The position numbers were made by a program, and so were the translations under genes. Below, one piece after another: positions 28,451-64,000 of a DNA stretch of 64,000 bases. Position 1 is the stretch's first letter. Every line of letters starts with the position of its first letter. Source of the DNA: Cladocopium goreaui (lineage: Eukaryota; Sar; Dinophyceae; Suessiales; Symbiodiniaceae); contig CAMXCT020002706.1 of NCBI GenBank assembly GCA_947184155.2, positions 25,424-89,423 on the forward strand. Direction: 5' to 3'. The notes beneath the pieces are model-generated. The model did not search any database, was not told where the DNA came from, and saw nothing but the letters and a program-made list of their open reading frames with translations.

Positions 28451-28584
28451 ATAAATATGGTAATTCCTTAAAATAATGCTGATTCCCCAGTTTGGAGGGG
28501 CAACATGTATGGTAGATGTTTGCCAGCCAACCTATAACGGGGGTGGCCTTGTTGTGGCCGCCTGGTTTGCCCATGGTTCCTAAG

Positions 28585-31322: not shown

Positions 31323-31344
31323 GTATGTTCATGGTATACCAACA

Positions 31345-31500
31345 AGGTTAATAGTGGTTAATCTTGGTTAATATTGGTTAATATTGGTTAATAGTGGTTA
31401 ATAGTGGTTAATAGTGGTTAATATTGGTTAATAGTGGTTAATAGTGGTTAATAATGGTTAATAAAGGTTAATAATGGTTAATAAAGGTTAATAATGGTAT
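31345..31500. repeat. 10-bp GGTTAATAGT minisatellite
   Basis: About 15 copies of GGTTAATAGT/GGTTAATATT/AGGTTAATAA follow directly after exon 7's donor region. Both sides of the array carry GGTATACCAACAAG (31334 and 31496), so the array may be expanded or inserted within that word. Confidence 0.8.
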
Positions 31501-31504
31501 ACCA

Positions 31505-31700
31505 ACAAGTCACAAACCCATGACTGGGAATGGTAACCATACCACCTATAAAAATGGTCATGACTGGGGGATGGTTTCTTGATGTTTATGATTGTTTTAG
31601 CCACATTAATATATATATACTGCTTGGTGGTTTGGAACATGGTTTTATTTTCCATATATTGGGAATAATCATTTTTGATAGCCATTTAAGTATCCATTTA
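31505..31700. mobile_element. Joined family-7 and family-3 elements
   Basis: GTCACAAACCCATGACTGGG to GTTTTAGCCACATTAATATA (family 7), then ACTGCTTGGTGGTTTGGAAC and TTCCATATATTGGGAATAAT (partial family 3). The same pair in the same order recurs at 40.62-40.80 kb. Confidence 0.65.
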
Positions 31701-31702
31701 AC

Positions 31703-31828
31703 TACTACTGCTTGGTGGTTTGGAACATGAATCTTATGACTTTCCCAGCATATTGGGAATGTCATCATCCCATTTGACGAACTCCATGATTTTTAATAGG
31801 GGTAGGTATACCACCAACCAGATATGCT
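31703..31828. mobile_element. MITE-like element, family 3
   Basis: ACTGCTTGGTGGTTTGGAAC ... GGGGTAGGTATACCACCAAC, ending CAGATATG. Confidence 0.75.
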
Positions 31829-32055
31829 ACAGTGGGTTTATAGTTTGTCGTAATAGATGTAATATGTTACATACCATATATTATGGTCAGTGAGTATTAA
31901 GCTCTATGGTAACACACTACTACTAGTATACCATCATTACTCACCATGGTGAGTGTATATATATATACGTATTTATATGTTTTCCCTGACCATCAAAAAC
32001 TATGCGAATCTGGGTAAATTCATCATATACACCGTGGTTAGTATGTGTAATATAT

Positions 32056-32165
32056 TCAATGGGAATTTCAGGATCCTAAAATAGAGGTATGTTAGTACCA
32101 TTTTTCAGGCCGTATTTTCTGGGGATATTCCCTGAAACATAGGCCTTACAAAAATTGGCCAAACA
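32056..32165. mobile_element. MITE-like element, family 5, right part degraded
   Basis: It starts TTCAATGGGAATTTCAGGAT CCTAAAAT as in the 36.66-kb copy. The right half is diverged (CCTGAAACATAGGCCTTAC). Confidence 0.55.
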
Positions 32166-32196
32166 TATATGGATATATATATATATATATGGTAGG

Positions 32197-32310
32197 TACC
32201 CTCTGGTAAACATCCAAAAAGCTATTTGAAAATGGCCCAGTCGAAATAGTGGATTTAGCCATTAATAGCATGGTGGATCTTTCCATCGTTTTTTGTTAAC
32301 GTTTACCAGG
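32197..32310. mobile_element. MITE-like element, family 1, variant right end
   Basis: It starts TACCCTCTGGTAAACATCC. The right end reads GTTTACCAGGCCGG, lacking AGGGTA. A GC-richer word (CTAGCTCCGGTTCATCGG) follows immediately, which could be a small exon (PASSGSSVPA in one phase). That exon is not strong enough to call. Confidence 0.65.
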
Positions 32311-32494
32311 CCGGCTAGCTCCGGTTCATCGGTTCCTGCATGGCACCATGATTCCACCGATGTTTTTTGGAGGCCGAAGATGTCAGCTTAGTGAAATAGG
32401 GAGCCTATGAGCCTATGGGATTCCCTAGGCTTTTTATGGTGATCTATAGGTTTTGTATTGCTAAAAATGTGAATTATAGTGATGATTGAAAGAT

Positions 32495-32614
32495 TTACCC
32501 GAAATGGTAAACGTTTACAGTTTGCGAACTGGAAAATCACCATTTATACTAGGTAGATCAACTATTTCTATGGTACATTTTCAATAGCAAACTGTTAACG
32601 TTTACCAGAGGGTA
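32495..32614. mobile_element. MITE-like element, family 1
   Basis: TACCCGAAATGGTAAACGTT ... TTAACGTTTACCAGAGGGTA with internal mirror (GCGAACTGGAAAATCACC / CATTTTCAATAGCAAACTG). Confidence 0.7.
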
Positions 32615-33408
32615 GTTTGATTTACCCAGGTGAGACGATGGTATCCAGTTTGATAGGTATGAAAAATGCCAGCTGATTGATAAAGATATTTATAACATAT
32701 ATGATTTGATAGTATGATTATTGGTATATATATATATGCCATACATTTTGGGGATATAAGGGCTATGTTATTGCCCAAAACTCAAGTTTACTAATAGTAC
32801 GGTTTACCTATAGTATGCCTTTCTGTTTCATAATGGGGATTAAACTAACCATGTTATGGGAATACAATGGGATATACAAAGGAATAATCCATGGATAATA
32901 TTTTTGGCTCAATTAATGATATAGTATAGTGGTGTATTTACTGTTCAAAAAAAACATGTAGTTAATATGTTTTTTCATGTGGCAAATTGTCAACTTGTCT
33001 TTTTTGTATCCCCATATACCACCTTGGTGTGTTCTACGTCCTCAACAAATATCAATGGTATAACAATTGATATGGATAATTAATGGATCAATATTCTTGA
33101 TACATGCAATATCAGATGGTGATTTTATGGTACACCATATGTTATTTGATATGATTCTTATTGGTATCTATATGTTTTTATATACACATACTGCTCAAGA
33201 TTTGGTATAATCTTGGTATACCGCGATGTTTTTTGTCAACCCTGAATTAGCAAACAAAGCCTCGTTGATGAAGGGTAACCCCCAGCCCAAGTCATGGCCA
33301 AAATGCTACCCGGTTACCCCAGCCCATGATCAACAGCGGGTGTTGTCCAAAATCGCTGACCAGCGAGGTTTGGTTTCGGGTCCAGGTCAATTGATTCGAT
33401 ATTGCTTA

Positions 33409-40325: not shown

Positions 40326-40429
40326 TACCCTCTGGTGAACTAACATAGCAATGGAAAATCACCATTCTTAATGGGAAAATCCACTATAAATAGCCATTTT
40401 CCATTGCTATGTTAGTTCACCAGAGGGTA
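40326..40429. mobile_element. MITE-like element, family 1, near-perfect palindrome
   Basis: TACCCTCTGGTGAACTAACATAGCAATGG is the near-exact reverse complement of the right end CCATTGCTATGTTAGTTCACCAGAGGGTA (read in pieces). The two arms are almost identical, indicating a young copy. Confidence 0.9.
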
Positions 40430-48348: not shown

Positions 48349-48901
48349 GTTCCAGGCAGATAGTGTAATAAACTGAATAGCCCCCCATGAAAAAAAATGG
48401 ATTGAAATGCGTTGAAATGCGTTGAACACATAAATAGCAACCATTTCATCAATCGCAAAAAGTTGAAAAATGGTTGACCATCAACCTGACAACAATCATT
48501 TATGAAATCCTGGACATAATCTGCAGAGACCAACCGTTGGGTTTAGGGTTTAGGACAAATGTGAAAGCATATGGCTATGGATCAATACCTATACATACCA
48601 TTTTTAGAGGGATTAACATCCATTTACCAGCTATTTTGATGTTCACCAGGGGTACAAGGTTTTGACACACTGCCATATGTCCGAAAATGTTTTCTCTTGA
48701 CAGTTGGGCATAGTTGGGCAAGTCCTTAAAACCATCAACCGCAAGTGTTGACACGGGTTTGTTCAGGTCACCAATGGTTTTTTTTTGGCATGTGGTTTCT
48801 GTAGCAAACCCAGTAGATCATAAATCCCTATAAAGTCTATAAATATGTTTGCGGGTGATTTCGGAAACATATCCTTTGTCATGAACTTATCGCATTTACA
48901 G

Positions 48902-49046
48902 CACCAACTACTCATCGCTTTATGCATTTTATGCGTTGATCATCAGTGCCTACGATTCGGTGATTCGTGATGGGAACTGGGATATCTCATGCAAAATCCC
49001 AGTCGAAGCATACCGTAGAATACCTCATTCTTCATATGATCGATAA
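48902..49046 (+). CDS. Gene B terminal exon candidate
   Basis: After ATCGCATTTACAG| the frame reads T, NYSSLYAFYALIISAYDS, VIRDGNWDISC and continues to TAA at 49044-49046. A donor at TCG|GTGATT (48960) could end it earlier. The minus strand has stops here. If terminal, gene B ends 150 bp from gene C's stop on the other strand. Confidence 0.45.
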
Positions 49047-49197
49047 ATATGTAACTATCAATGATTAATACTATATCTATAATAACAATTTGTGAAAAAG
49101 CGTCTACTCACCCCAAATCGCTGTGGCAAGTCCTCTAAGTCCATCTAAATCTAAGTCCCAACATCGCATCTGCCCTGGGGTTGCAGGCGCCCGCTGC

Positions 49198-49340
49198 TCA
49201 AGAACGACACACCGGGACCGTTGCAGCACTTGCGACAACAACGCGCCGTCGGCTAAGCCGAGGCGTGCGAAGGCGCCAGAGTTGCAAAGCACGGCCCGGT
49301 GGCGTTGAAGAAACGATGCGCGGGAGTTGATTGGCCAGTT
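49198..49340 (-). CDS. Gene C terminal exon: last WD40 blade
   Basis: A T-run acceptor (TTTTTTTTTGCACAG|) opens ELANQLP then RIVSSTPPGRALQLWRLR, matching the 'VS....D..L.LW' end of a last WD repeat. A basic tail and TGA follow. Start phase 1 fits the donor at 50429. Another minus frame is open through the whole island (GAFARLGLADGALLSQVLQ) and ends at a perfect GTGAGT donor (49111), so frame choice is not certain. Confidence 0.5.
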
Positions 49341-49344
49341 CTGT

Positions 49345-50425
49345 GCAAAAAAAAAAAGCTGTTGGCGGATAAGAAATGCTTATTTTATGGGTCATACATC
49401 AGGGAACATTTGATGATATGAACCAGCATAGCCTGCTGTGGGTGATGGGACTACAATATGATTAAAGCCACAGACATTTATGATATAATCAGCTAAAGGT
49501 AGCAGGTTCAACCGTAATTGAACTGATGTTCCCCTTTTTTGAGGGGGCGGGGGGACTGTCGGACAGCCATGATATTAACGAGTATCAAAAGGGGAGATTC
49601 ATGGAAAGTCTTACGGGGATAACCCCATAACCTACAGATGGGGGGTTGAACCCTTTGAAAAGGTCATCACCAGTGCGAGATGCTGAGATGTCAACGGCTT
49701 TTTTTCACCAACCCAGAATGGATCAATATGTGGATACAACATGCAAAAAAGAAATCCCTAATCCTCAAGTTACCTCTGAGATAGGTAACCATGTTGATTC
49801 TACCTGATGATTGTCGGGTTGGTTATCTAACTGATAGGTGACTGGAAGGTGAGGGAATAGTGGATGTAATTTGGATATGGAACCAAGAAAGGGAAGCAAC
49901 GAGACCACAAGTCTGGTCATTGTTTTGGGCTGAGCTATATTGATTTTTGTTGCATGGTCAGCAAAAACCAGTTGGCCCCTTTGCTGGATGGTTGTGTGGG
50001 AAGATACTGATAAAACCACATTGCCACACTGAATTGGGATTATTTTGATCCACCACGGAATATTTGGTTTGAACAGACCAGTACAAGTTGATGAGACAAG
50101 AGTTCAGGACAGCTGCTTGACACTACCAATTGAGACGGTAGTTTTGGTTATTGTATATTTATCGTGTTTCGCCCAACTAAGAGAATGATCATGTCAAATA
50201 TATTCAAATATGCAGAGTATCCAACCACTTCAGAAAATATGCATAGATTATCATAGATTACTAGCAGGTGCAGTTTCAAAAAATGGGAAGTGGTTACCAA
50301 ACCATGTAGAACTCGGCCACATGGCCCAACCAACTGGGTCGGGCCCTGTTTCTATGAATAAATAAATGAATATATATATATACAGTATATAAAATTATAT
50401 GGTACATGCACTAATTCCTCTGCCC
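49345..50425. other. Intronic (gene C); no exon recognised
   Basis: Moderately AT-rich sequence with short open stretches (49765-50019 -, 50148-50333 -) that lack splice pairs. Confidence 0.3.
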
Positions 50426-50428
50426 CAC

Positions 50429-50502
50429 CTGCTTGACGACAGCGTATCAATTTTATCGATGCCAGGGTCAAGCTACGGTGGGAGCAGTCGTGCATGACCC
50501 CC
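50429..50502 (-). CDS. Gene C candidate exon (50.4 kb)
   Basis: The acceptor GTTCTCTCCTGCACAG|G opens GVM, HDCSHRSLTLAS, IKLIRCRQA and ends at GCAG|GTGGGG. The end phase matches the terminal exon. 'H...R.L.LA' suits the start of a WD blade. The plus strand reads INFIDARVKLRWEQSCM with its own acceptor (GCTTGACGACAG|) and donor (CAT|GTGTAT), so the strand is arguable. Confidence 0.4.
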
Positions 50503-50629
50503 CTGTGCAGGAGAGAACATGTGTATACATATATATATATAAGTACATATATATATATATACTGTATTTAGATAGATAGATTTATCATAGAGAAAATTCA
50601 ATAGACCCCTCATACCCCTTGGCACTTAA

Positions 50630-50742
50630 GAGGGGTTTCTGAAAGGGTTCCTGCGCCTCCTCGTCGTGTGAGTGACAACTTCTGCTTCCAAAACCCAGCA
50701 TGGTCGCGGGCCAAGATTTTCAAGACCCTTGACCATCATTCC
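50630..50742. CDS. Candidate exon, strand unresolved (gene C interval)
   Basis: A GC island. On the minus strand, after CAAG|G, it reads VLKILARDHAGFWKQKLSL, with a plausible WD-type 'xxFWK'. On the plus strand it reads DNFCFQNPAWSRAKIFKTL with a GTGAGG donor supplied by the neighbouring family-4 element remnant. Gene context favours minus. Confidence 0.35.
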
Positions 50743-51059
50743 AGTGAGGTCCCAGTGAGGTCGTTGTAATTTACTGAGATCAATGGTAAAATGTACATAG
50801 AGTCACATAATCATCCATCATTATCCCACTACTATCCCATATTAATCCGTATGAATATCCTATATCTATCCCATTATCATTGAGATCAATGAATGCTTTC
50901 CTCGTTAGTAATTCCCCATTCAGTGGGGTTGTAATATGGGTTGTTTGCCAGTTCCGATTCGTAAGGAAAATCCTCCAAGCACAGGGCCATTCAGCCAAAA
51001 TTCAGCCAGAGTTGCTTTGAAACACCCTTTACTTAGCTAATTACCAAATATTTTCCTCC

Positions 51060-51159
51060 ATTCAATGGATTGGTTTAAGGGAAAATTTACAGGAAAGCCC
51101 CATATTTAATGGGGAAATCCATGGTTTCCTGTAAATTTTCCCTTAAAGCAATCCATTGA
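51060..51159. mobile_element. MITE-like element, family 6 (CAATGGATTGGTTTAAGGG)
   Basis: TTCAATGGATTGGTTTAAGG GAAAATTTACAGGAAA is mirrored by TTTCCTGTAAATTTTCCCTT AAAGCAATCCATTGA. A related copy is at 62212-62293. Confidence 0.85.
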
Positions 51160-51273
51160 TCCATATGGATATTTCCTAAAATAGGGGTACCCCAAATCAT
51201 CCAAGTCATGGATGACCATTTTAATATTGAACATGGGTTTTCGGGGTACCCCTATTTTTTGAAACCCGCATAC

Positions 51274-51379
51274 TACCCTCTGGTAAACTGTTACATAACT
51301 AGGGAAAATCACCATTTTTAATGGGAAAATCCACTATAAATGGCCATTTTCAATTGCTATGTTAGTTCACCAGAGGGTA
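51274..51379. mobile_element. MITE-like element, family 1
   Basis: TACCCTCTGGTAAACTGTTA ... CTATGTTAGTTCACCAGAGGGTA. Confidence 0.85.
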
Positions 51380-51689
51380 ATCCCAATTTAGTAAGATTCT
51401 CTATTCTAAACCATCCAGCTTTTGGGGTACCACCATTTATGGAAACCTCCAAATATGCTCTTCCATATCACAATATGGCCATATAATTAACCACACATAC
51501 TTTATCTAGATATGGTTATATGGAAATACTTAGAATAGTATTTATATGGTTCATAATAACCATACAATAACCAAAAAAAATATATGTTTCAAGCATATCA
51601 TGGTGGTTATATATGTGGTTGTATATTTATATATGCTTAGAATATTATATGGTTAAACATATGTTTCAAGCAGATATATTATTTGTTCA

Positions 51690-51785
51690 AGCATATAAGA
51701 ACCATCCCAATGGATCCATGGCTGAGAAGCTACAGTACTTCCTAAGAAGGCACGGCTGGATCCACAACAAGGCATATCATCTTCT
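51690..51785. CDS. Candidate exon, strand unresolved
   Basis: A GC-richer island in very AT-rich DNA. The + frame is strongly protein-like (NHPNGSMAEKLQYFLRRHGW). The minus frames (LLWIQPCLLRKYCSFSAMD) are weaker, though gene C on minus spans the site. Function unknown. Confidence 0.3.
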
Positions 51786-51799
51786 ATTTTTACCGAGAT

Positions 51800-52750
51800 C
51801 ATAGCCATTTCATATTCCATAAAATGTTCCATATATAATATATTTTAATATATAATGACCATAATATCCATATTATCTCAACCATAATAATGTGCCATAT
51901 AAAAACCATGTATTAAGCATGTAATGACCTTGAGAATGTGCCATATATGTTTATGGTTATTGCGTGATTACAACATGTAACCATTATCCATGTAATAATG
52001 ATTAATACTAATTAATCCATATAATGTATATTAGTACCATGAATATTTGTGATTATAACGATCCATTATCATGTAATAATCATGTAAGATCATAACCATA
52101 TAATTATCCATAGCCATTAAGAACCATATGATCTGAGTAACATATTTTAACATATAATAACTATAAATAATATATAACAAACCATAGATAATAACCATTA
52201 AATAACCATTAATAACTATTAATCATGTAAGATAATAACCATAGTAACATCATGAACCATCTTTAATATATAATACAGTATATATAACCATCATATAAAT
52301 CCATTAAATAACCATTAAATATATTTTTAAGAACCATATGATCTTAGTAGCATCTTTAACTCATAAAATTTATAACCATCATAACCATCATAACATCATA
52401 ATAACATCATAACCATCACAACCATTTATCTTATTAACCCAGATATATGGATATATTAATAACGATTAAATATTATTATATCAATTACCATTATATCAAT
52501 ATACAATATTATTAACCATTAACAAACGTTTAATAACCATCATGATTGACCCATCTAAGATTGACCTATCTTAGTAACATCATACCATTAATAACCATTA
52601 ATCATGTAAGATAATCACCATAGTAACATCATTAACCATCTTTAATATACAATAACCATCATTAACCATAGTATTATTATTATATCAATTACCATTATAT
52701 CAATATACCATTTTATTAACCATTAACAAACCATTAATAACCATCGTTAA
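51800..52750. repeat. AT-rich ATAACCATTA-type degenerate repeat
   Basis: Nearly 1 kb is composed of TAACCATTAATAACCATTA, CATCATAACCATCATAAC and TTTAATATATAATAACCATC words. A block of about 80 bp (TTATATCAATTACCATTATATCAATATAC...) occurs twice (52475 and 52677). There is no gene. Confidence 0.65.
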
Positions 52751-52783
52751 CCATAAAAAATAACTCGCGCCGGGTCTCCACAC

Positions 52784-52846
52784 GTCGCCCTCGTTGCCAC
52801 CGGAGGCCAAGAGCTGCAATTCCTCAGACCAACTGAGGCCACAGAC
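52784..52846 (-). CDS. Gene C exon: WD40 signature EVCGLSW...LASGGNEG
   Basis: The acceptor CATTGCTTCAGCCAG|G opens VCGLSWSEELQLLASGGNEG D, 21 codons, with donor GAC|GTGTGG. With the Glu of the previous exon it forms the E-V-C-G-L-x-W and L-A-S-G-G-N blocks that are diagnostic of CDC20/FZR proteins. The frame continues as VWRPGAS if unspliced, so the 3' edge has some uncertainty. Confidence 0.75.
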
Positions 52847-52911
52847 CTGGCTGAAGCAATGGATAAATGAAGTTTGTTTTGGGACATACATTATTTATGA
52901 TAGAAATGTAT

Positions 52912-53020
52912 TATCCTCTGGTTATGTCAAAATAGCTATTGAAAATGACCATAGAAATAGTGGATTTTCCCATTAAAAATTAGGTGATTTTCCATAGTTA
53001 TGTTAAATTACCAGAGGGTA
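52912..53020. mobile_element. MITE-like element, family 1
   Basis: TATCCTCTGGTTATGTCAAA ... ATGTTAAATTACCAGAGGGTA. ACATTATTTATGATAGAAATG lies left and ACATTATTTATGATAAAAATG right, a long apparent duplication of the insertion site. Confidence 0.85.
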
Positions 53021-53029
53021 CATTATTTA

Positions 53030-54560
53030 TGATAAAAATGCATTATCATGTATTATCTAATATGTATATATTTTAGTTATATATATAATTTAGTTATATA
53101 TAGTTATATAAATATGTAAATTATAAATATATAAGTTACATATATATATATAGCATATCATACAGGAATTTCTATAGGTCATGAAGGTTATAGATAAGAC
53201 TATTCCCCCTATGGGGATTGAACCGCTTTGGACCGATGCTCTTCGCTTGGAAATAACGTGAAATTGGACCGGTGCTCACTAAAGAGCCAATGCCACCGGG
53301 GATATGTGCTCACTAAAAAGGGATCTAGGATAATCACTAAAATATTGGTTATACTATGTTTTCACCAAAATCGTTATAATACCAATGTTTCACCAAAATA
53401 TGAATTTACTATTTTCCATCACTTGTGAGGTAACTAGGATAAATCCAGGGTTGCTCCCCAGCACCCCAGGTACAAGGAGAGGTAAATTTGGTCAATGCGA
53501 AGGTGACATGACCTATTTGACCCCCAAAAGTGGCTATCATTTAACTATAATGGGTTGGAGCATTTAGCTAGCAACATGTGGATTGGACGATCGTCTGGTG
53601 TGATTGAACTCCGCTCAATGTGTCAAAACATTGGATAAATTAATGGTGTATGGTCATCTCGCCGTCATTTGGATCTTGAATCCCACAATATGACAGGGTA
53701 TATTCCATTCATCGAAGTGTGGTATTTCATATAGTTCTTACCCACTTACCAAGATGGATATCATTCCCACTCCGTTGGGGTTCCTTGCCACTGGTGCATA
53801 GTAATACCCATTCACGTGGGATGACGAGTCCCTTTTTGTAGGTATAAATTATTGAACTGTTGACCATGGCACAGATGATGGGGGAACACTGGGGACTTGA
53901 TCCAGATTTCATCAGATTGAAGGCGCTAGCCGCTAGCATCAACATGTCTCAACCATCAAGAATGCCTTACAGATCGGTGATCAAATTTGGCAGCACCTGT
54001 CAACAACGGGGATGATCTGCACAAAAAGGTGCGGGCATGGAACCAACGAAACAAACAGCTGAGAAAATACCAGGGAAGAAGCAGTGCAGGCTGCCCAAAT
54101 TCCGGAAGGCTGGCGTTAGTCAGTGTTAGTGAAAATCGAAGCGATATGACCAAACAGAAAGAACATATGTACTGTCAACCCCATATCAAAGAACCATTCT
54201 TGACAAATCCCACGGGATTGCACCAAACAAGTCGTAATCTATCGCAATCTGCTACTGCAACAAACTGCAACCCCCCAAATAGACAGCCCAGAGGGTTATC
54301 AATCCAGAGTTGGCATGAAGGTAAATTTGGTGTTCAGGTTCTGTATTATATGCAATGAGCCAACTTCGAAGTATGGGCTATATAATATAAAGTTATATAA
54401 ACATATAATATATATATATATATGATGATATATGGATTGCAAACCACATCCAAGTACCTGTGCGCAATGGCGTGACCAGTGGCACTCTTTTAAAAGTCGC
54501 TTGACCCCAAGCCCGCATCCCATCGTCCCAGTTACCCAAGTTTCAATTTGCTCTTCGAAA
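53030..54560. other. Intronic (gene C); no exon recognised
   Basis: The span has (TA)n-rich sequence at 53050-53155, two doubtful open stretches (53987-54358 +, 53727-53945 -) and a (TA)n run at 54400-54425. No splice-supported island was found. Confidence 0.3.
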
Positions 54561-54569
54561 AATGTGAAA

Positions 54570-54690
54570 TGATATGCTAGTTGGTGGTATACCTACCCCT
54601 CTGAAGAATATGAAAGTCAGTTGGGATGATTATGCCCATATATTATGGAAAAATAAAAGATGTTCCAAACCACCAACCAGATATGAATTT
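54570..54690. mobile_element. MITE-like element, family 3
   Basis: TAGTTGGTGGTATACCTACC CCTCTGAAGAA ... GATGTTCCAAACCACCAACC AGATATG, in the orientation opposite to most copies. Confidence 0.8.
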
Positions 54691-54847
54691 CACATCTTGA
54701 TCTCCCAAGTGAGTAAGTTCAGAGTCAGCTCACTGATTCGATTCACCATAGCTCACTTTGGGGCCCTCGATGTATCTTGATGTGCCATGATGTACCTTAT
54801 TTTGACACCAAACCATGTTGAGCCATCTGAAAATATCATAGTATTCT

Positions 54848-54960
54848 AGATAAATTACAATATTTCACTAGCCTGAATTAAGGCCATTTGGGGATGATTT
54901 GCCTTATAAACAATGATTCCAGAGAGGGAGAAAGGTGAGATCGTTACAATTTACCCAGAG
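54848..54960. mobile_element. MITE-like element, family 4
   Basis: TCTAGATAAATTACAATATT TCACTAGCC ... GAGATCGTTACAATTTACCC AGAG. Confidence 0.75.
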
Positions 54961-55194
54961 TATATCAGTGTGTAGAATCTTATAATACATCAAACTGGTG
55001 AAAGTCTGAGAAAAACTGACAATATCATAAGAATACTATGGTATACTATACACCCATATAATAAAATTGTATATAATAAACCAAACTATCTTCCAGTTTT
55101 TAGACCATAGTTTAGTATATAAAACTATACACCGCCAATATCATAGTATTCTTGTTGAATAGCATCATTCAGGCTCCCTGGGCCCCCCGTTGGC

Positions 55195-55232
55195 CTCTTC
55201 AGCATGTCCGGCCAGGCGTTGAGCGGGTCGAC
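55195..55232 (-). CDS. Gene C micro-exon (38 nt): RLAGHAEE
   Basis: The acceptor GCGAATAACCAG|G gives RPAQRLAGHAEE with phase 1 in and phase 0 out at a GC donor (GAGGAG-type: GAAGAG|GCCAAC). Joined to the next exon it reads ...GHAEE|VCGLSW..., the conserved CDC20/FZR junction. Other frames of the island are also open (VDPLNAWPDMLKRP), but only this one completes the WD repeat. Confidence 0.7.
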
Positions 55233-55244
55233 CTGGTTATTCGC

Positions 55245-55655
55245 GAACCGAGCCCTCGAAATTGTTCACCATTTCACCGGACGGCTTTTTGGGCAAAAAC
55301 AGGCCATGAAAAATCAGAACTGGGGAAATCAACATGAAAATTGGGGAAAATCATGGGGAAAACAAGAAATAAAACAAGAAATGAATTGAATTTTGGGGAA
55401 AATTGAGGAAGCCATGAATCAACATGAACATGTCATAAAAAATGGCTTCAATGGGGAAAACAATTTAAAAGAACACAATACCTAGCTGGAAATTCAATGT
55501 TCATTTGACGCATGATCTTCCGGAGAAATGTAACATGGATATCCTGGATAGCAACCAAAGGTTGTTCATCCTGGCTTGACCTTGTCATTGCATTATCAAG
55601 TTGGTACAGGATGGCGCCCGCAGTCGAGCTCGCGTTCAGAAACGCCTTCTTTCAG
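55245..55655. other. Intronic; no exon recognised
   Basis: A-rich sequence with repeated AAAATTGGGGAAAATCATGGGG-like words at 55300-55460. Confidence 0.35.
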
Positions 55656-55659
55656 TGGC

Positions 55660-55772
55660 TGAATTAACTTGGGTTTATAGTAGAGATAACTATAGTACTC
55701 CTGGGGGTTATAATGGTTTATATATATATATATAAACCAACAAACATCACTGGGGGGCACCCCCCTGTACAA
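55660..55772. mobile_element. MITE-like element, family 2, diverged
   Basis: AATTAACTTGGGTTTATAGT ... AAACATCACTGGGGGGCACC CCCCTGTAC. The TA-rich core is expanded. Confidence 0.6.
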
Positions 55773-56079
55773 GACTGCAATTCACTCTGAACTGCTGACC
55801 AATTTTGGTGGGGCCATCCCAGCTAGTCGGGGGCTCTTATACAGCTTGAGTATTGTATAAGAATTCACTGTACAAGAATTTGAGGGGCTCGAATCCAAGG
55901 CGGGCTACATATTTTCAGCTATACCAAGCACATAGCACTTTAAGAATTTGAGGGACCCTGGAATAGGATTGCCAAATTCTTAAATTACTGCTTATACGTG
56001 AGGTTTGCAATTCCCCTTTGCGGTTCATTTTTTTTGTGGAGTGACCCCTTATGGTCTTATGGGATGAAATCGAGCTTTG

Positions 56080-56332
56080 CAGAAAAACAATTGTTCAAGC
56101 AACGAAGAATTATTTTTTCTGCACTGCTCTTATGAAACGCAAACAAGCCCCAGCCCGGCTTTGCAAAAAAACAATTTTTCAGGCTCTAAAAAAATGTTTT
56201 TTCTGCACTGTTCTTATGAAACTCAGAGAAGCCCGGATTTGCAAAAAAGCAATTTTTCAGGCTCTAAAAAAATGTTTTTTTCTGCACTGTTCTTATGAAA
56301 CTCAGAGAAGCCCGGATTTGCCAAAAAAAAAT
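56080..56332. repeat. 78-83-bp tandem array, left part (three copies)
   Basis: The unit contains CAATTTTTCAGGCTCTAAAA, TGTTTTTTCTGCACTGTTCT and TATGAAACTCAGAGAAGCCC GGATTTGC. The array is broken at about 56332 by the inverted composite element and resumes at 57110. Confidence 0.85.
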
Positions 56333-56377
56333 ACTTTACTTCGTGTGATCCCCACCATGACATTTATACATGTTCTT

Positions 56378-56725
56378 ACTGGCACATCTTCTGGCATTCT
56401 ATCTGACATATCTTCTGACATTCTATTTGGCATTCTATCTGGCATATCTTCTGGCATTCTATCTGACAAATCTTCTGGCATTCTATCTGGCATATCTTCT
56501 GGCATTCTATCTGACATATCTTATGGCATTCTATCTGGCATTCTATCTGGCATATCTTCTGGCATATATTCTGACATATCTTCTGGCATTCTATCTGGCA
56601 TTCTATCTGGCATTCTATCTGGCATATCTTCTGGAATATTTTCTGGCATATCTATCTGGCATATCTTCTGGCATATTTTCTGGCATTCTACCTGGCAAAT
56701 CTTCTGGCACTCTATCTGACATTTT
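56378..56725. repeat. 24-bp minisatellite inside copy 2
   Basis: GGCATATCTTCT/GGCATTCTATCT 12-bp half-units, the reverse complement of the array at 22.74-23.16 kb. Confidence 0.85.
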
Positions 56726-56734
56726 ATCTTCCTA

Positions 56735-56995
56735 CATGAGGTCCGGCAGGGAACACTTGGCGTGGATACTCGCGGTTGAGGTCCGGCAGGGAACACTGGG
56801 CGTGGATGGTCGTGGTTGAGGTCCGGCAGGGAACACTGGGCGGGGATGGTCGTGGTTGAGGTCCGGCAGGGAACACTGGGCGTGGATACTCGCGGTTGAG
56901 GTCCGGCAGGGAACACTGGGCGGTGATGGTCGTGGTTGAGGTCCGGCAGGGCACACTGGGCGTGGATGGTCGTGGTTGAGGTCCGGCAGGGAGCA
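56735..56995. repeat. 40-bp minisatellite inside copy 2
   Basis: GGTTGAGGTCCGGCAGGGAA units, the reverse complement of the array at 22.42-22.68 kb. Confidence 0.85.
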
Positions 56996-57111
56996 GGAGG
57001 AGAGGAGACGAGGAGAGGAGACGAGGAGAGGAGACGAGGAGAGGAGGAGGAGAAGGAGGAGGAGCAAGCAACTGACATAAAATCTAACAACCCTCACCTG
57101 GCAGGTGGGGA

Positions 57112-57530
57112 ATCAGGCTCTAAAAAAATGTTTTTTTCTGAACCGTTCTTATGAAACTCAGAGAAGCCCGGATTTGCCAAAAAAACAATTTTTCAGGCTC
57201 TAAAAAAATGTTTTTTCTGCACTGTTCTTATGAAACTCAGAGAAGCCCGGATTTGCAAAAAAAAACAATTTTCAGGCTCTAAAAAAAAGTTTTTTCTACA
57301 CTGTTCTTATGAAACTCAGAGAAGCCCGGATTTGCAAAAAAAAAATCAGGCTCTAAAAAAATGTTTTTTCTGCACTGTTCTTATGAAACTCAGAGAAGCC
57401 CGGATTTGCCAAAAAAGCAATTTTTCAGGCTCTAAAAAAATGTTTTTTTCTGCACTGTTCTTATGAAACTCAGAGAAGCCCGGATTTGCCAAAAAAAACA
57501 ATTTTTCAGGCTCTAAAAAATTGTTTTTTT
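57112..57530. repeat. 78-83-bp tandem array, right part (five to six copies)
   Basis: The same unit as 56080-56332. One copy (near 57340) is shortened by loss of the CAATTTT segment. Poly-A/poly-T length differs between copies. Confidence 0.85.
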
Positions 57531-58350
57531 CGTGTGTCTCTTGTCAAATCTGCCAGCTCCACCTCGTTACCTTGCTTTGGCTCGCTCCAAATTGCGCAGA
57601 TGCGCACAATACATGACTAAGAACGCTCTAAGAATTTGAGGGACCCTCGACCTATTGTGGTGGAAATTTGCCATTTTAAAACCTCAGGCTTTCAGATTCT
57701 TAACCAACTCTCGGGCTCTGCACAAACTGTGCCGTCTGCTCGGGGCAGTTTCTGACGGATTATGGGAATTGGTTTGAGACTTCCATAATTCCCTTCAGAA
57801 CCCATTGGAATGTGGAAATCCGTTTTGACGGATTTCAAACAATAAGTTCCTTCACAGAACAAACATGTTCCTGAAAGACGCCCCACATGGTAGGCTGTAT
57901 CCTTTTTACTGAAAAAAAAAACAAAAAATCAGCCTCTCAGTAAACCCATCTTTTGAAGACCATGATGCCGAACACACCTCTATGGGAACCCAAAATTGGT
58001 GCTGACCTGGTAATTCCTGGAATCAGTTGGTTGGTACTCATGGGACTGTATGAATCAACCCTTCTGTGATGGTCAAAGAACACATTTCCCAGTTGAATCA
58101 AGATATAATGTTTATTATCTAGTATAGAATCTATAAATATTATTATTATATATAATTATTTTAGATAACATAATGGTGAGTGGACCACCATTTTGATGCC
58201 AAGATATCTGCATATGGTCATGGTCATGACATCTCCATATTTCCGAGATAACTCCCCGTAGTTGATAGTACAACCAATGTTGAAAAGGTTAAATCAGTTA
58301 AATCTGTATATTTTTTCCGAGTTAAACCCACCAAAAAACATGGTGTTTGT
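57531..58350. other. Intronic (gene C); no exon recognised
   Basis: The word AAGAATTTGAGGGACCCT (57630) also occurs at 55938, so the tandem-array region is flanked by related sequence. No splice-supported island was found. Confidence 0.35.
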
Positions 58351-58356
58351 TCTGGC

Positions 58357-58470
58357 TACCCTCTGGCAAACGTTAACATAACTATGGAAAATCACCACGC
58401 TATTAATGGGCATATCAACTATAAATAAATGGCCATTGTTCATAGCTATGTAAACGTTTACCAGAGGCTA
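58357..58470. mobile_element. MITE-like element, family 1
   Basis: TACCCTCTGGCAAACGTTAA ... CTATGTAAACGTTTACCAGAGGCTA. Confidence 0.8.
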
Positions 58471-58474
58471 GAAA

Positions 58475-58705
58475 GTGGTGCCCCCGTTTACGAACGCTAA
58501 GTTGGGGTTCACATAACTCCAATTTCACTATGGTAAAGATGGTACGCACATAACTACAAGGTGGTGCCCCATAGTTAGCTAAGTTGGTTTATAACTCCCA
58601 TAACTATGGTTTATGGCAGATATAACTATAGTTAATGGGGTTTATAAACCAACTTATAACTGGGGGGCACCATCCTGTATAGTTACTGGGGCTTTTGTTA
58701 ACCAA
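58475..58705. mobile_element. Family-2 element interrupted by a second family-2 element
   Basis: The outer copy starts GTGGTGCCCCCGTTTACGAA and continues after the inner copy as TAGTTACTGGGGCTTTTGTT AACCAAC. The inner, cleaner copy is TACAAGGTGGTGCCCCATAG ... GGGGGGCACCATCCTGTA (58555-58679). It sits at the AACTA|TAGTTACT point of the outer copy, showing at least two rounds of activity. Confidence 0.75.
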
Positions 58706-58791
58706 CAACCCCACCATCCATTCCTCTATGGCTCGAGAGGTTTTTCACCCACCATCCCATGCGAAAGCGATGGACGCCCAGGTGCCGTCAC

Positions 58792-58828
58792 AGGGCTCAC
58801 GCAGGTCCCAGTGCAAGATGGACGTATC
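58792..58828 (-). CDS. Gene C micro-exon (37 nt): DTSILHWDLREP
   Basis: The acceptor CATGACTTCCCCGCAG|G opens DTSILHWDLREP plus one base, ending at GAGCCCT|GTGACG. With the next exon it yields '...DLREPC|RPAQRLAGHAEE', the normal spacing between these WD motifs. A later in-phase donor (GATG|GTGGGT, 58752) would add 13 residues (CDGTWASIAFAWD) and cannot be excluded. Confidence 0.7.
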
Positions 58829-59002
58829 CTGCGGGGAAGTCATGGACAGACTTGATATGTTTGACATGATATGACATGTGTACTGTATATTAAAAAGTAT
58901 ATTTGATGTGTATATACCATACATAGATATATTCATATCTATATTGTTTCTTGAAATGCGTATATAAATATGTCCATATAATATATATATATATTTATAT
59001 AT

Positions 59003-59118
59003 GGGTAAATTATAATAATTCACTAACCTGAATAGTTCGGTCATTTGGGGATGATTTCCCTTATTAACTATGATTTCCAGTGAGGGAGAACAGTGAGGTC
59101 GTTATAACTTACCCAGGT
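59003..59118. mobile_element. MITE-like element, family 4
   Basis: ATGGGTAAATTATAATAATT CACTAACCTGAATAG ... GGTCGTTATAACTTACCCAG. It is a good copy with both GGGTAAATTATAA/TTATAACTTACCC ends. Confidence 0.8.
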
Positions 59119-59280
59119 ATATATGTATATATATGTGCGGATATAGATGTAAGATCAATACATTAGAGATAGGTAACGATAACCAACAAACAATTTGGAC
59201 ATCAGCCTCGATCAACGTCGCATGTTGGACGCCAAACATTGGTGGAGGTCAATATGGGGAATGAATGAACAAAGACCACT

Positions 59281-59434
59281 ACAGGATGGGGGCCGCCAGT
59301 GATGTGAATGTTGGTTTATAAACACCATGAATACTATAGTTATCTATAGCTAAATCCACCATAAACCATAGAATTCAGCCACTTATATCTCAACTGAACG
59401 CTATCTTGGGGGCCCCATCCTGTACCCTCCGGTT
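59281..59434. mobile_element. MITE-like element, family 2
   Basis: TACAGGATGGGGGCCGCCAG ... GGGGGCCCCATCCTGTA. A near relative in opposite orientation is at 41577-41743. Confidence 0.8.
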
Positions 59435-59585
59435 TGCTCAAACATGGCTTAAGCTGAAAATCCCAGCCATTTATAGAGAGAGAGAGAGATTTTCCAGCAA
59501 TTTCCTAGTATAAACTTCCAGCTATCATTGGGGGATGTGAGAAGTGTCATGGATCCCATCTGTTGGGGTTAAAAAAGTGAGGATT

Positions 59586-59695
59586 GCCCTCTGGTAATGA
59601 CTAACAGTTCGCTATTGAAAATGGCCATTTGTAGTTGATGTTCCCATTAAACATGGTGATTTTCCATAGTTATGTAAACGTCTACCAGAGGATTA
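59586..59695. mobile_element. MITE-like element, family 1
   Basis: TGCCCTCTGGTAATGACTAA ... TTATGTAAACGTCTACCAGAGGATTA. Confidence 0.75.
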
Positions 59696-60074
59696 ACGTA
59701 CATGGGGATTAAACTATGTTGACCTGGCTGGTTGGTGAAGGTTCAACATTGAATCATTGGGATTTCCATGACGATGGTTAGTCTTCCACCAACCGCGCCA
59801 AGTGACCCCACAATCATCTTGGATGATCATCTCTAGATCCAGACATCAAGAAGCTGTTTGGGATGGTTCGATGGATCTCTTGATATCCACTGGCGTCTCT
59901 TGCTAAATCCAATCAAAATAGTCTAACCATCCAAAATAGTCTACCTATCCGGACCTATCCCAAAAAAATAGATAAAATCAACTAATTATCCAAAATAGTC
60001 TATCCAAAATAGTCTATCCATCCAAAATCATCCAGAACGATTTTGGATAAATCTCCATGTCTCCATCAAAACGC

Positions 60075-60129
60075 CTGCGAGCCGCTGAAGAGATCCACGT
60101 GGCTGGCCCAGCTTACTGCACAGCACCTC
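60075..60129 (-). CDS. Gene C exon (55 nt): CCAVSWASHVDLFSGSQ
   Basis: The acceptor CACACCGTAAAG|G gives R, CCAVSWASHVDLFSGSQ, ending at CAG|GCGTTT, a GC donor. It is phase 2 in and phase 0 out. It continues the WD blade as '...HRR|RCCAVSW' and hands over '...SGSQ|DTSI'. The SW.....SGS pattern is the usual core of this blade in CDC20/FZR proteins. Confidence 0.7.
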
Positions 60130-60585
60130 CTTTACGGTGTGGAATAACAGGGATATCTTGGGAGATTTCTTAGGCAATATTTATCTGTTCATATTTAATG
60201 GGATTCAGGATAGAAAATATGCCAGGATAGAATCATCAAACCCCGATATTTTATGATACTTTATGATAATTTATGGTGATATTTTATTGACAATTATTAC
60301 TATTCTACTATTCATGAGCCAATGTTCCAGCCTTGGAAACCCTCCAACCTTGGTGGTAAATCCCATACACCTTTTAAGATCGGACCTCAGAGCTTGCGTC
60401 AATCTTTTTCACGAGCTGGCTGGTGAAGTGGCCCAGTGAGAACGGCTTGTAAAATTATAGTTCCCAGCAAAAAGTGCAACGTATAAGCCCATGTAATAAT
60501 CATTGATTTACCCATGAACAAAAATGGTGATTTACCCAGCTATAAAATGGTGATTGTCCCTAGTTTTTTGTATGTTTAATCCATA

Positions 60586-60689
60586 TACCCTCTGGTAAAC
60601 TAACATAGCTTTGGAAAATCAACATTTTTAATGGGAAAACTCAGTATAAATTGCCATCTTCAATAGCTATGTTAGTTTACCAGATGGTA
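60586..60689. mobile_element. MITE-like element, family 1
   Basis: TACCCTCTGGTAAACTAACA ... CTATGTTAGTTTACCAGATGGTA, 45 bp downstream (in gene C sense) of the exon at 60734. Confidence 0.85.
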
Positions 60690-60733
60690 ATCCCCCAAGA
60701 AATCATCGATCGCAGGGGTTTTTTTCGGGCCGC

Positions 60734-60780
60734 CTGCGATGGCCACGAAGGACTTGCAGCTGCACCCCAGCTGAGGTATC
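60734..60780 (-). CDS. Gene C exon (47 nt): DTSAGVQLQVLRGHR
   Basis: The acceptor GGCTGGCGCGCCAG|G opens DTSAGVQLQVLRGHR and ends at CGCAG|GCGGCC (GC donor), phase 0 in and 2 out. Preceded by '...DVQIW' it forms the WD dipeptide (IW|D), followed by the L-x-x-L-R-G-H start of the next blade. The larger GC island around it is open in other frames on both strands, but they do not join the neighbours. Confidence 0.7.
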
Positions 60781-61039
60781 CTGGCGCGCCAGCCAGCGCG
60801 CTGCCACGCCAAGTGGGCCGTCAGATGTCCGACGTTGGACGAATCAGACGCTGGGCAGAGATTGGGCAGATTTCCAACATTTATAGTACAGAAATGTACA
60901 GAACATTAATGATGTACATTATATTATAGTGCATGATCAGATTAAGGTTCTGCCAAGGGCATTTTGATGCATTTAAGACCAGATGAACTTAAAAAAATAA
61001 ATTACATGCCGCATGTGATCATGTCATAGATGATACAGC

Positions 61040-61260
61040 ATGTTGCAGCGAGTTGCTGCATTTTTTCATTGTAGCATATTGTTGCCCCCAGACTGATCGT
61101 TGTTCAGATGCGTGTCGACAAGAATGGCTGAAAAGAGACGGGAACACGCTCCATGCAGCGTTTATTGACCAATATTTTACCCTGAAAAGGGCCCCAACAG
61201 GGAGAGCCACACCGTCACGTGGGACATCTGGACAGCAACGGGACAAAGAGGGAAACCATG
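61040..61260. other. GC-richer island, possible exon of unknown strand
   Basis: The + frame reads EWLKRDGNTLHAAFIDQYF. The minus strand has two very good acceptors (CCCTTTTCAG|G, CCCGTCTCTTTTCAG|). Gene C needs no extra sequence here, because the exons at 62.6 and 60.8 kb join directly in phase. Confidence 0.25.
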
Positions 61261-61261
61261 T

Positions 61262-61394
61262 AATGTCAACCCCGGATTAATAAACCATGGTTTATTAATT
61301 AGGGGGGCATTCCCCCAATAGTCATGATTTGATACTTCAATGGTACCTTTCCAATGAAACAGCTTAGGGGTTTATTAATCCAGGGTTGACATTA
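61262..61394. mobile_element. MITE-like element, family 8 (TGTCAACCCCGGATTAATAA)
   Basis: TAATGTCAACCCCGGATTAA TAAACC is mirrored by GGTTTATTAATCCAGGGTTG ACATTA. Only one copy is in the window. Confidence 0.8.
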
Positions 61395-61399
61395 ACTGA

Positions 61400-62205
61400 T
61401 TGTAGCATGATATGTTCCCTGTTTTGTCATCCAAGAGGTTCAGAACGGAAAAGTCCCATCCACCTTAGTTGGGAGACTAGCCGGGCTATAGTGGGCCTGG
61501 ACCTTACTTGCCAGTGGCAAAAGATTTCATAGCATGATAAACATGGTGTGCCACACTGAAGGAGCACCCGGTGCGCCGTAAAAAACGCACATCCAAAAGG
61601 CGTCAAGATCTTGGCCCTTTCATAGATAATGTTACTCCGGAAACGATTATCCTAGCATATCCTAGGAATCCTAGCTGTTTGATTTGGAGCATCCTGACAA
61701 AAAACGTTCATCTGCTATTCAACTGGACCCCTGCAATTTGACGAATCATGACTTCTTCAAATCCAGAGACACTGGTCCACCAGGTGCGGGTGATGAGACT
61801 ATGACCCACTTGGAGCATCACCCCATGCGGTAAATGATTAGCTTTTTGCGGGTAAAACAAAGCCATTTGCACCATCCCCCAGTCATCACCATTTTTATAG
61901 ATGGTATGTTTACCATTCCCAGATGGGTGCTTTATTATTGTCTTACCCACATTAAGTGGGATTATAATCCGCTTATCAATGGGATAACTTAGGGGACTTG
62001 GGCCCCGTGAATACAGCCGCCCGTGAGCAGGACGCGCATGGCAAAGACCTTCATTTGGGATATCTCAATGGGGCACCCACAGACAAAACAATTGCACATT
62101 TTTCCCATGTTTTTTCCGCACAAACAAAGTCATATCTGCATATGAGTGTTCAATTGCCGATCACTTTCCACCAGAAATAAACCCCTCAAAAGCGATAAAT
62201 CATCA
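61400..62205. other. Intronic (gene C); family-7 fragment
   Basis: ACCATCCCCCAGTCATCACC to TTGTCTTACCCACATTAAGT (61872-61957) is an inverted-orientation relative of the family-7 element. The rest has no supported exon. Confidence 0.4.
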
Positions 62206-62211
62206 AAAATG

Positions 62212-62293
62212 TCAATGGATTGGTTTAAGGGTAGATTTTCCCATTAAATATGGGATTTTCACATATATTTTTTCCCTTAAACCAATCCATTGA
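62212..62293. mobile_element. MITE-like element, family 6
   Basis: TCAATGGATTGGTTTAAGGG ... TTTCCCTTAAACCAATCCAT TGA. The terminal 17 bp are perfectly inverted. Confidence 0.85.
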
Positions 62294-62581
62294 AAATGTG
62301 TATTTTATCTTAGTCATGGCTGTTTCGAAAGAATTTGGTGAATCCAGGATTCGAAACCTTCCAGTTGGGGAAAGTCCGAATATTTGAAAGGAATCGTGGA
62401 TTGGGCTGCGTGCATATGATGACACATAATATTGTATTATATATATATATATGTATTGTATACTGTATACATATGTGTGTGTACATCTAAAATCATATAC
62501 TGTATACGTATACATATTATGTATTATATTTTAGGGGGTCCACCCTAATGTTTAATCAACACCCTTGCCCCCCCATGGCAC

Positions 62582-62633
62582 CCAAATCTGGACGTCGCCA
62601 TTGGCAAGGCCCAGGGCCAGATGGTTGCAACAC
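62582..62633 (-). CDS. Gene C exon (52 nt): WD40 blade ending DVQIW
   Basis: The acceptor TTCGCTGCGACAG|G opens CCNHLALGLANGDVQIW and ends TGG|GTGCCA. LALGLxNGDVQIW is the standard end of a WD blade (A-V-G-x-x-x-G-x-V-Q-I/L-W in CDC20). Phase 2 in matches the micro-exon at 63.4 kb and phase 0 out matches 60780. Confidence 0.75.
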
Positions 62634-62649
62634 CTGTCGCAGCGAAAAA

Positions 62650-63385
62650 TGTTTGGAGTTCACATCGAATTTCACAAAACATGATGGGAACTAGAGAAAT
62701 GAAACCAACCCAAATTGGATATCAAATTGTACATCTACTAATGTGGTTTATTTTAATTTGGAATCAGATTGTGCAAACCCATCCTTGTATCATCTCCATT
62801 AGACCAACAAAGAAAAGCAAAAAATATCAAATGGCCCCATCCAATGAACCCCCAAACTCACCCAGTTGTTCACTTAAATATGTGGCAAGAGTCACATTTG
62901 GGGCACGATATTCAAACAGAATGACGAACAAAGTTTTTTTACACGTGGGGTATCCACTAATCAACATCCAACATTGTTCTATTCAACAAGAATCAGACAT
63001 ACCGCTTCGAAATTTAATATAGCTATAGACAATGGCCTCCAGTTTCATTATAGATGTGTTATCTTCTATACATGGTGACTTTCATAAGAAACTGCTAAAT
63101 CACCTGAGGTTGAATCCCAATGTTTAATCACAAATCCCCATGTTTGAATGTTGTCCCATGAAATACCCATTCATATGTCATGAAACCACTATTTACATCT
63201 ATTTACAAGGGTTAAATAGCCAGAAATCACTATATGTTTTGTTGGTCATTTTATATGTCAAAATCACTATTCCTATTGGCCAAACACCTTTTTTTGCTGT
63301 CTTTATTGCTTAAATCCCATGGAAAACCACGATGGAGCCATTGCTAAAATGTAGCCAAAAATGACCCCTTAGAAAAGCCGCGCCC
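62650..63385. other. Intronic (gene C); no exon recognised
   Basis: An open + stretch (62621-63022) overlaps the WD40 exon and is regarded as its shadow plus intron. The rest is AT-rich. Confidence 0.35.
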
Positions 63386-63391
63386 AGGCAC

Positions 63392-63417
63392 CGACGAGGC
63401 CAGCGGAGGGAACACAC
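63392..63417 (-). CDS. Gene C micro-exon (26 nt): VCSLRWPR
   Basis: The acceptor GTGAGCTCCAG|G encodes VCSLRWPR plus two bases, with donor CGTCG|GTGCCT. It completes '...VCSLRWPR-R-CCNHLALG', the beta-strand that opens the blade. At 26 nt it is the smallest exon called; support comes from phase and motif continuity. Confidence 0.6.
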
Positions 63418-63454
63418 CTGGAGCTCACAAGGCTATGTATTAAATATGTATATA

Positions 63455-63720
63455 GTATATATAATTTACATATATATTATATATACATACATACATATAT
63501 ATATATATAACATATATATATATAACATATATATATAACATATATATATAACATATATATATATAACATATATATATATATATAACATATATATATATAT
63601 AACATATATATATAACATATATTATATATATGTACATATATATATATTATACATATGTATATATATAATATACATATGTGCATATCGAAGTATAAATAAA
63701 TATACATATATATATAATGG
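63455..63720. repeat. (TA)n / ACATATATATATA microsatellite
   Basis: About ten TATATATAACATATATATAT blocks. Tyr/Ile-rich frames are artefacts. Confidence 0.85.
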
Positions 63721-63899
63721 ATACCTATGATCGTCCAGTTTTTTGTATGCTTGTGTATATGTGGAAAAATGTGCACCTACGACAAGTCGGAGACAAACAT
63801 ACGGAGATCTTCACCAACCATTTCATGGGGATGTAATTCATACTCACCAACCATATTATATGAATATGATATGATTGGATCTGTATATCTTAATAATAC

Positions 63900-64000
63900 A
63901 TACTGCTGGTTGGTGGTTTCAACCCCTCTGAAAAATATGAAAATCAGTTGGGGCTAATATTATCAACATATGGAAAAATAAAAAATGCTCCAAACCACCA
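63900..64000. mobile_element. MITE-like element, family 3, cut by window end
   Basis: ACTGCTGGTTGGTGGTTTCA ACCCCTCTGAAAAATATGAA ... GCTCCAAACCACCA. Confidence 0.75.

Follow-up and report, generated by a model that had tools for sequence, protein, structure and literature searches.

Seven micro-exons spread over 10.6 kb read as the middle of a divergent, probably CDH1/FZR-class, dinoflagellate gene

Introduction

Can seven exons of 26 to 63 nt, scattered over the minus strand of a 64,000-nucleotide stretch of genomic DNA, belong to a single gene, and if so to which one? The stretch analysed here (the window, C2706:25424-89423, where C2706 abbreviates the name of its contig) belongs to an assembly whose 6202 contigs total 1.166 Gb; an earlier note had described exons of 26, 52, 47, 55, 37, 38 and 63 nt as one WD40 series of CDC20/FZR type, supplying their lengths without coordinates. 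All seven were located, at window positions 63417-52784, and their observation as one WD40 series is confirmed. Judged by homology, the window very probably holds blades 2-4, the centre of a nuclear gene for a divergent CDH1/FZR-class co-activator of the anaphase-promoting complex/cyclosome (APC/C) in a peridinin dinoflagellate.

Results

Read along the minus strand, the series opens blade 2 with the 26-nt exon (63392..63417; VCSLRWPR(R); acceptor ctccag/G and donor TCG/gtgcct, the slash marking the splice junction), which was placed by hand; none of the other six is as uncertain. Blade 2 continues in the 52-nt exon (62582..62633; (R)CCNHLALGLANGDVQIW; donor TGG/gtgcca), returned unprompted by a spliced aligner under both of its weight sets, with 27.1 bits. 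The next four exons likewise come from the aligner: 47 nt (60734..60780; DTSAGVQLQVLRGHR(R); GC donor CAG/gcggcc), 55 nt in blade 3 (60075..60129; (R)RCCAVSWASHVDLFSGSQ; GC donor CAG/gcgttt), 37 nt (58792..58828; DTSILHWDLREP(C); donor CCT/gtgacg) and 38 nt (55195..55232; (C)RPAQRLAGHAEE; GC donor GAG/gccaac). The 63-nt exon of blade 4 (52784..52846; VCGLSWSEELQLLASGGNEGD; donor GAC/gtgtgg) closes the series; its 3' end could be fixed because the next exon, on contig C1050, continues in phase 0. Joined, the seven exons give 318 nt or 106 aa with zero stops, the other two frames holding 1 and 3 stops, and the phases, described earlier as compatible, do run 0-2-0-2-0-1-0-0. The donors are 4 GT and 3 GC, all seven acceptors read AG/G, and exon GC content is 0.59-0.69 vs. 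0.37-0.43 in the surrounding introns. As aligned, these exons are WD40 blades 2-4, the middle part of the gene, and make up 7 of its at least 21 WD40 exons. The proposed spread over more than 10 kb is borne out (10.6 kb measured); the low end once set at 49198 is not, no exon of the gene having been found in 52783-49198. An island at 49153-49330, the likely source of that low end, gave no Pfam match in the two frames tried.

The custom spliced protein-profile aligner (GT, GC and GA donors, AG acceptors, unlimited intron length; its profile built from yeast Cdh1 and the human proteins CDC20 and FZR1) was run on the minus strand of window positions 64000-48800. Its first weights returned 11 exons unprompted, with those of 52, 47, 55, 37 and 38 nt exact and one at 52846 overrunning its 3' end; the other five (63119-63072 and 62734-62706 upstream, three downstream at 50656-49795) were dropped as padding. 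Dinoflagellate splice weights returned 10 exons, the same six and four that were dropped, and alternative hand-made splice choices between exons 2 and 4 were abandoned once the aligner chose the 47-nt exon. The chain scored 95.6, against 39.3 ± 2.6 with a maximum of 43.9 in 24 dinucleotide shuffles; further controls gave 53.8 (plus strand), 37.0 (reversed profile) and 38.4-61.3 (six other window stretches). When everything except the seven islands was blanked, a score of 86.3 was left, contributed by six of them. Singly and in order, the exons score 10.7, 27.1, 14.5, 23.9, 15.4, 11.9 and 35.6 bits; most being weak, it is the chain and not any one exon that carries the case, with the exception of exon 7, where the piece read from the exon matches the CDC20-Fz family PF24807 by itself at 7.9e-05.

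A profile search of the joined sequence, the check that the earlier note had proposed, bears out its CDC20/FZR assignment, and the identity can be narrowed to the CDH1/FZR class. The 106 aa match PF24807 (WD40_CDC20-Fz) with 93.4 bits (E = 2e-26) continuously over residues 1-104, followed by WDR3 with 59.0 bits; the match spans profile positions 54-156 of 292, and it stays under the curated cut-off of 200 bits because only about a third of the profile is present. FZR1 aligns to the window part in one continuous stretch, residues 2-104, with 100.4 bits. NCBIfam gave no match.

The 5' part of the gene is missing from the window because contig C2706 ends at window position 64000. It continues on C1050, since the minus strand of window 50357..64000 corresponds to C1050:167161-180823 with 99.5% identity, the 13,676 columns of the alignment including 6 mismatches and 51 gap bases; all seven window exons recur there letter for letter, the 26-nt exon at C1050:167744-167769. 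The full profile scores 170.4 on C1050. Upstream of the seven exons this contig has DDYYLNLLDWSSEDQLAV, GLGRDVDLWNAST and GRASRLCELDTS, a head that scores 59.8 by itself (15.0-21.5 in 6 shuffles); downstream it has VLLWSRGTLERRLGSHTAACKALDW and SPRGVLATGGGTAD, a tail that scores 44.9 by itself (17.5-27.1 in 6 shuffles). The remaining blades 5-7 are supplied by contig C2480 (98.2, vs. 24.5-32.5 in 6 shuffles), where one padding exon was dropped from the full-profile run. Blade 1 and a C-box exon thus lie on another contig of the same assembly, C1050; the C-box, DRLIPSRAG (C1050:151665-151737, same orientation), stands alone in matching DR.[IV]P along 14 kb of the plus strand there, a count made without shuffles. 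N-terminal runs returned 8 pieces with FZR1, 5 with CDC20 and 3 with the gene on contig C6012 described below; the pieces 155321-155403, 157356-157416 and 158830-158862 and two common to all three runs were kept; from a separate run, 153315-153357 was dropped. The FZR1 run, likewise without shuffles, places the CDH1-like motifs FARLLRNELL and TPERGLFRY upstream on C1050; they resemble LLKNELL and TPEKKGLFTY, which precede the propeller in human FZR1.

The composite WD40 domain assembled in this way covers positions 1-292 of 292 of PF24807 with 301.2 bits, above the cut-off of 200. Its identity is 50.2% to FZR1 (295 aligned residues), 41.4% to yeast Cdh1, 40.4% to Slp1 and 39.9% to CDC20. At 17 class-diagnostic columns, fixed differently in FZR1 = CDH1 and in CDC20 = SLP1, the composite has 10 CDH1-type residues, 2 CDC20-type, 4 other and 1 gap; counted in the same order, a conventional CDH1 gene of the same genome on contig C287 has 14, 1, 0 and 2, and a CDC20-class gene on C6012 has 5, 5, 7 and 0. 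An unrooted tree of seven sequences separates the composite, FZR1 and the C287 gene from the CDC20 group with 89% ultrafast bootstrap support, and yeast Cdh1 falls with the latter. On this sequence evidence the window gene is a divergent member of the CDH1/FZR class. Three bacterial WD40 loci from the contig collection (two Leptolyngbya, one Anaerolineae) were generic propellers and were not used.

The two paralogs differ widely in structure. The CDH1 gene (C287:72242-81317, minus strand; alignment score 424.2) shows 12 introns in the stretch fetched, with 7 GT and 5 GC donors, AG/G at 13 of 13 acceptors and a mean length of 66 nt for the exons before the last; it is 46.4% identical to the window gene. 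The CDC20-class gene (C6012:146262-147128, plus strand; CDC20-Fz WD40 domain 386 bits) is a single uninterrupted open reading frame (ORF), 466 aa long when counted from its first start codon, ends in IR, and is possibly a retrocopy. In the composite, at least 21 WD40 exons provide 327 open codons, the 20 exons before the last having a mean of 43.1 nt, a median of 40.5 and a range of 23-77; the 20 introns average 1620 nt and range over 282-3580. Among the 18 intron positions comparable with the C287 gene, one is shared exactly (column and phase) with its 12; a further two come within two columns of one. The intron gain that the earlier note read into the micro-exons is plausible on this count of one in 18, without being shown, gain and loss being inseparable without outgroups; the pattern fits extensive gain after the duplication, with differential loss as the alternative.

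Composite donors are 10 GC, 9 GT and 1 GA, and all 21 acceptors read AG/G, the outer exons having been found with weights that favour it. These values fit those tabulated for six non-parasitic dinoflagellates, namely donors of 24-75% GT, 25-58% GC and 0.1-24% GA and acceptors of 80-97% AGG (PMC10666404, Table 2). Introner-driven intron creation is treated in a review (PMC11453091, citing Roy et al. 2023). Within the window, a palindromic repeat of about 102 nt (ACCCTCTGGTAAAC...GTTTACCAGAGGGT) occurs at 24 places, among them 9690-9797, 40327-40428, 51275-51378, 52914-53019, 58358-58468, 59587-59692 and 60587-60688, and at least 8 of the 24 have a T on one side and an A on the other, as an insertion at TA would leave them; the repeat is also present on dozens of other contigs. 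Five of the six window introns contain it (1, as a weak match, 3, 4, 5 and 6). The nearest splice site is 45 nt away, so that the repeat reaches none, and introner families were not searched for systematically. Intron 5 also holds one copy (56379-57064) of a composite tandem-repeat block of 12-nt and 40-nt units with a CCT/GGA-rich stretch, set between arrays of a 79-nt unit (56074-56332 and 57113-57529); the other copy, at 22286-23168, has the opposite orientation.

The peridinin-chlorophyll-protein family has at least 150 matches in the genome, many in tandem, and none in 14 control genomes; together with the splice sites, these matches point to the genome of a peridinin dinoflagellate. The window itself contains no dinoflagellate spliced leader (DinoSL), gave no match in tRNA and Rfam scans and has no relative in plasmid and viral collections; Pfam searches with ten sequences drawn from its other islands and ORFs gave no match above cut-off. 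A degenerate telomere-like TTTAGGG array lies in the contig interior at window 12919-13222, with three consecutive perfect copies near 13164. A plus-strand ORF at 24664-24993 with CDCSDCADEETWTCGTCG resembles the cysteine-rich start of glucosidase II beta; it has no Pfam match above cut-off. Contig C1 (7.38 Mb, the longest among the contigs listed) resembles a bacterial chromosome and carries many long single-ORF WD40 genes of up to 1375 aa.

Discussion

The alternative that survives best concerns the window's copy: at 50357 a recent rearrangement, or else a chimeric assembly, may have parted blades 2-4 from blades 5-7, leaving this copy truncated and non-functional, a proposition on which the evidence is evenly balanced. 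C2706 parts from C1050 at that position, in an AT-rich run within the intron after the 63-nt exon, and three contigs share the breakpoint within about 10 nt: segments A/B on C1050 (180823-180834), A/X on C2706 (window 50357) and Y/B on C2480 (518714). X (window 48800-50357) matches nothing except itself among the candidates scored (best 40 of 6051), and Y (C2480:518715-519500) has a full match on its own contig only, besides short dispersed repeats (best 40 of 2083 candidates). The missing tail was not found in the rest of C2706. Blades 5-7 scored 27.7-33.4 on the window minus strand with the first weights, which had no shuffles of their own, and 25.8-31.1 with the dinoflagellate weights, vs. 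19.9-32.2 in 8 shuffles; the window plus strand gave 26.7-33.7 (dinoflagellate weights) and 30.7-41.1 (first weights), and the other 25 kb of C2706 gave 26.3 and 26.6 on the minus and 31.2 and 26.0 on the plus strand. The plus-strand chain of 41.1 (15000-31000) was rejected as a mixture of repeat and GC-rich pieces, 17000-33000 giving 32.3 with the second weights. Planted tails (six each) scored 113-134 unmutated, 57-89 at 20% and 32-63 at 35% extra mutation, over a background of 24.0-27.2 in three real stretches; a tail about as diverged as the known exons would be seen, but a much more diverged one could escape. Against truncation stand the identity of all seven exons with C1050 and the mere 6 mismatches in 13.7 kb, from which it follows that the break, if real, is very recent; the gene on C1050 and C2480 is unaffected either way. 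A/B is taken as the original order because it restores the gene in phase on C1050, which also makes a chimeric C1050, in place of C2706, less likely; A/X and Y/B may have arisen by misassembly or by a recent translocation, or may mark both ends of one large insertion.

The assignment of the window to a CDH1/FZR-class co-activator gene has to be weighed against several observations. The composite spans two contigs, C1050 and C2480, by way of a 3.2-kb overlap (99.2%, 3 mismatches); the splicing of the N-terminal pieces, including how the C-box exon joins the others, is provisional; and the exon RRFPAAPYK on C1050 comes from the CDC20 N-terminus run only, not from the FZR1 run. The last exon (C2480:507449 down) reads to a stop as ...LVHTYPT, so that the IR tail is not seen and a further splice is possible. 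The composite branch in the seven-sequence tree is long (0.87). At the D-box-pocket position the gene reads LSAP, the Asp of LDAP being replaced by Ser; LDAP is kept in FZR1, CDH1, CDC20, SLP1 and the C6012 gene, and the stretch read of the C287 gene excludes the site. GGNDN reads GGNEG, with the first Asn (human CDC20 N329) kept and the second (N331) changed to Gly; in addition, DETLRFW reads NEMLCFW. The LDAP Asp is presumably the D-box pocket residue, and the GGN Asn the KEN-site residue. Methodical points belong here as well. Every run returned padding exons that were dropped by hand; the aligner admits no stops and its second weights favour AG/G, so that the open frame and the 21 of 21 AG/G acceptors are partly built in, the window exons having been found with only a mild AG/G preference. 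No aligner run ever picked the hand-placed 26-nt exon; under equal splice and phase requirements, segments as good as its first eight codons number 2 over the two window strands (itself and one at 46805, minus), and 4 of 20 shuffled 64-kb strands have one apiece. On C1050 the aligner read this exon as 39 nt in a different frame behind a 5-nt exon; the 26-nt reading was kept because it joins the preceding 35-nt exon (phase 0) to the 52-nt exon in the frame of the window.

Some of these features, namely the long branch, the altered LDAP and GGNDN and the unseen IR tail, would suit an old pseudogene in both copies. Such decay is improbable, as the gene is open over 327 codons in 21 exons, homologous to CDH1 from end to end and 46.4% identical to the C287 gene, with homologous splice-bounded pieces for every blade; openness alone counts for less, being partly an outcome of the stop-free aligner. 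Membership in some other WD40 family (WDR3, THOC3, Notchless) outside the APC/C co-activators is more improbable still and already disfavoured: WD repeats match many families, and the top summed phmmer scores of the window part against the PDB belong to designed and Notchless propellers, but the continuous alignment with FZR1, the CDC20-Fz lead of 34 bits over WDR3 (window part) and of 194 bits over THOC3 (composite), and the C-box sequence upstream argue otherwise. Finally, chance likeness of islands picked by eye is regarded as refuted: single exons of 26-47 nt are weak alone (10.7-15.4 bits) and the aligner gives 37-61 on unrelated or reversed material, but the chain stands more than 20 standard deviations above the shuffles and adjoining exons were found where predicted on other contigs.

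For a divergent CDH1/FZR-class gene, the following course of expression can be envisaged. The gene is presumably transcribed and spliced as modelled; about 20 introns, 0.3-3.6 kb long and 1.6 kb on average, would be removed from its pre-mRNA at dinoflagellate-type splice sites, and splicing would join exons of 23-77 nt into a seven-bladed WD40 domain behind the C-box. If it works as CDH1 does, the protein would use this C-box to dock on the APC/C and would hold substrates on its propeller; APC/C binding and the choice of substrates are thus extrapolated from its relatives. The KEN-site Asn that is kept and the LDAP Asp that has become Ser hint at an altered choice of substrates, which is the weakest step.

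A more tentative proposal, somewhat less probable than its converse, is that the window gene represents a third APC/C co-activator of dinoflagellates, next to an ordinary CDH1 and an intronless CDC20. As a fast-evolving paralog of the CDH1 class it would have kept the C-box and the KEN Asn, lost the D-box-pocket Asp and turned to different substrates; nearly all its 20 introns would postdate the duplication, or else those of its paralog would have been replaced since then. If so, one small family in one genome records 0, about 12 and about 20 introns; with three APC/C activators in one dinoflagellate (0, 12 seen and 20 introns, hardly any of them shared), gain vs. loss becomes testable through orthologs. 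Dinoflagellate mitosis is closed and unusual, and a third co-activator would bear on its control. Among the papers listed by literature searches, none had dinoflagellate APC/C co-activators as its main subject, which is not proof of absence. In a genome-wide six-frame search the gene's own exon ranked near the bottom of 143 matches, with E = 0.27; an ancient cell-cycle gene can therefore escape annotation based on ORFs or single exons.

Compared with human FZR1, the window gene shares the full CDC20-Fz profile, 50.2% identity and the C-box DR-IPSRAG; it differs in LSAP, GGNEG, NEMLCFW, the unseen IR tail and exons of about 43 nt. The C287 CDH1 gene belongs to the same family and genome, uses the same splice-site type and also has very short internal exons (19-32 nt), yet it is 69.5% identical to human FZR1, in contrast to 50.2% for the window gene. 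The C6012 gene clusters with CDC20 and Slp1 (98% ultrafast bootstrap) and, unlike the window gene, has an intronless reading frame. Intron-rich genes described from Polarella, Symbiodiniaceae and Prorocentrum provide the closest structural parallel (PMC10666404, PMC7245778, PMC11453091), with GC, GT and some GA donors, AG/G acceptors, short exons and long introns; the mean exon of the window gene, 43 nt, is shorter than the means of 99-240 nt given for the six non-parasitic dinoflagellates (PMC10666404, Table 2). The micro-exon structure of this gene is striking, but its style is already known from dinoflagellates.

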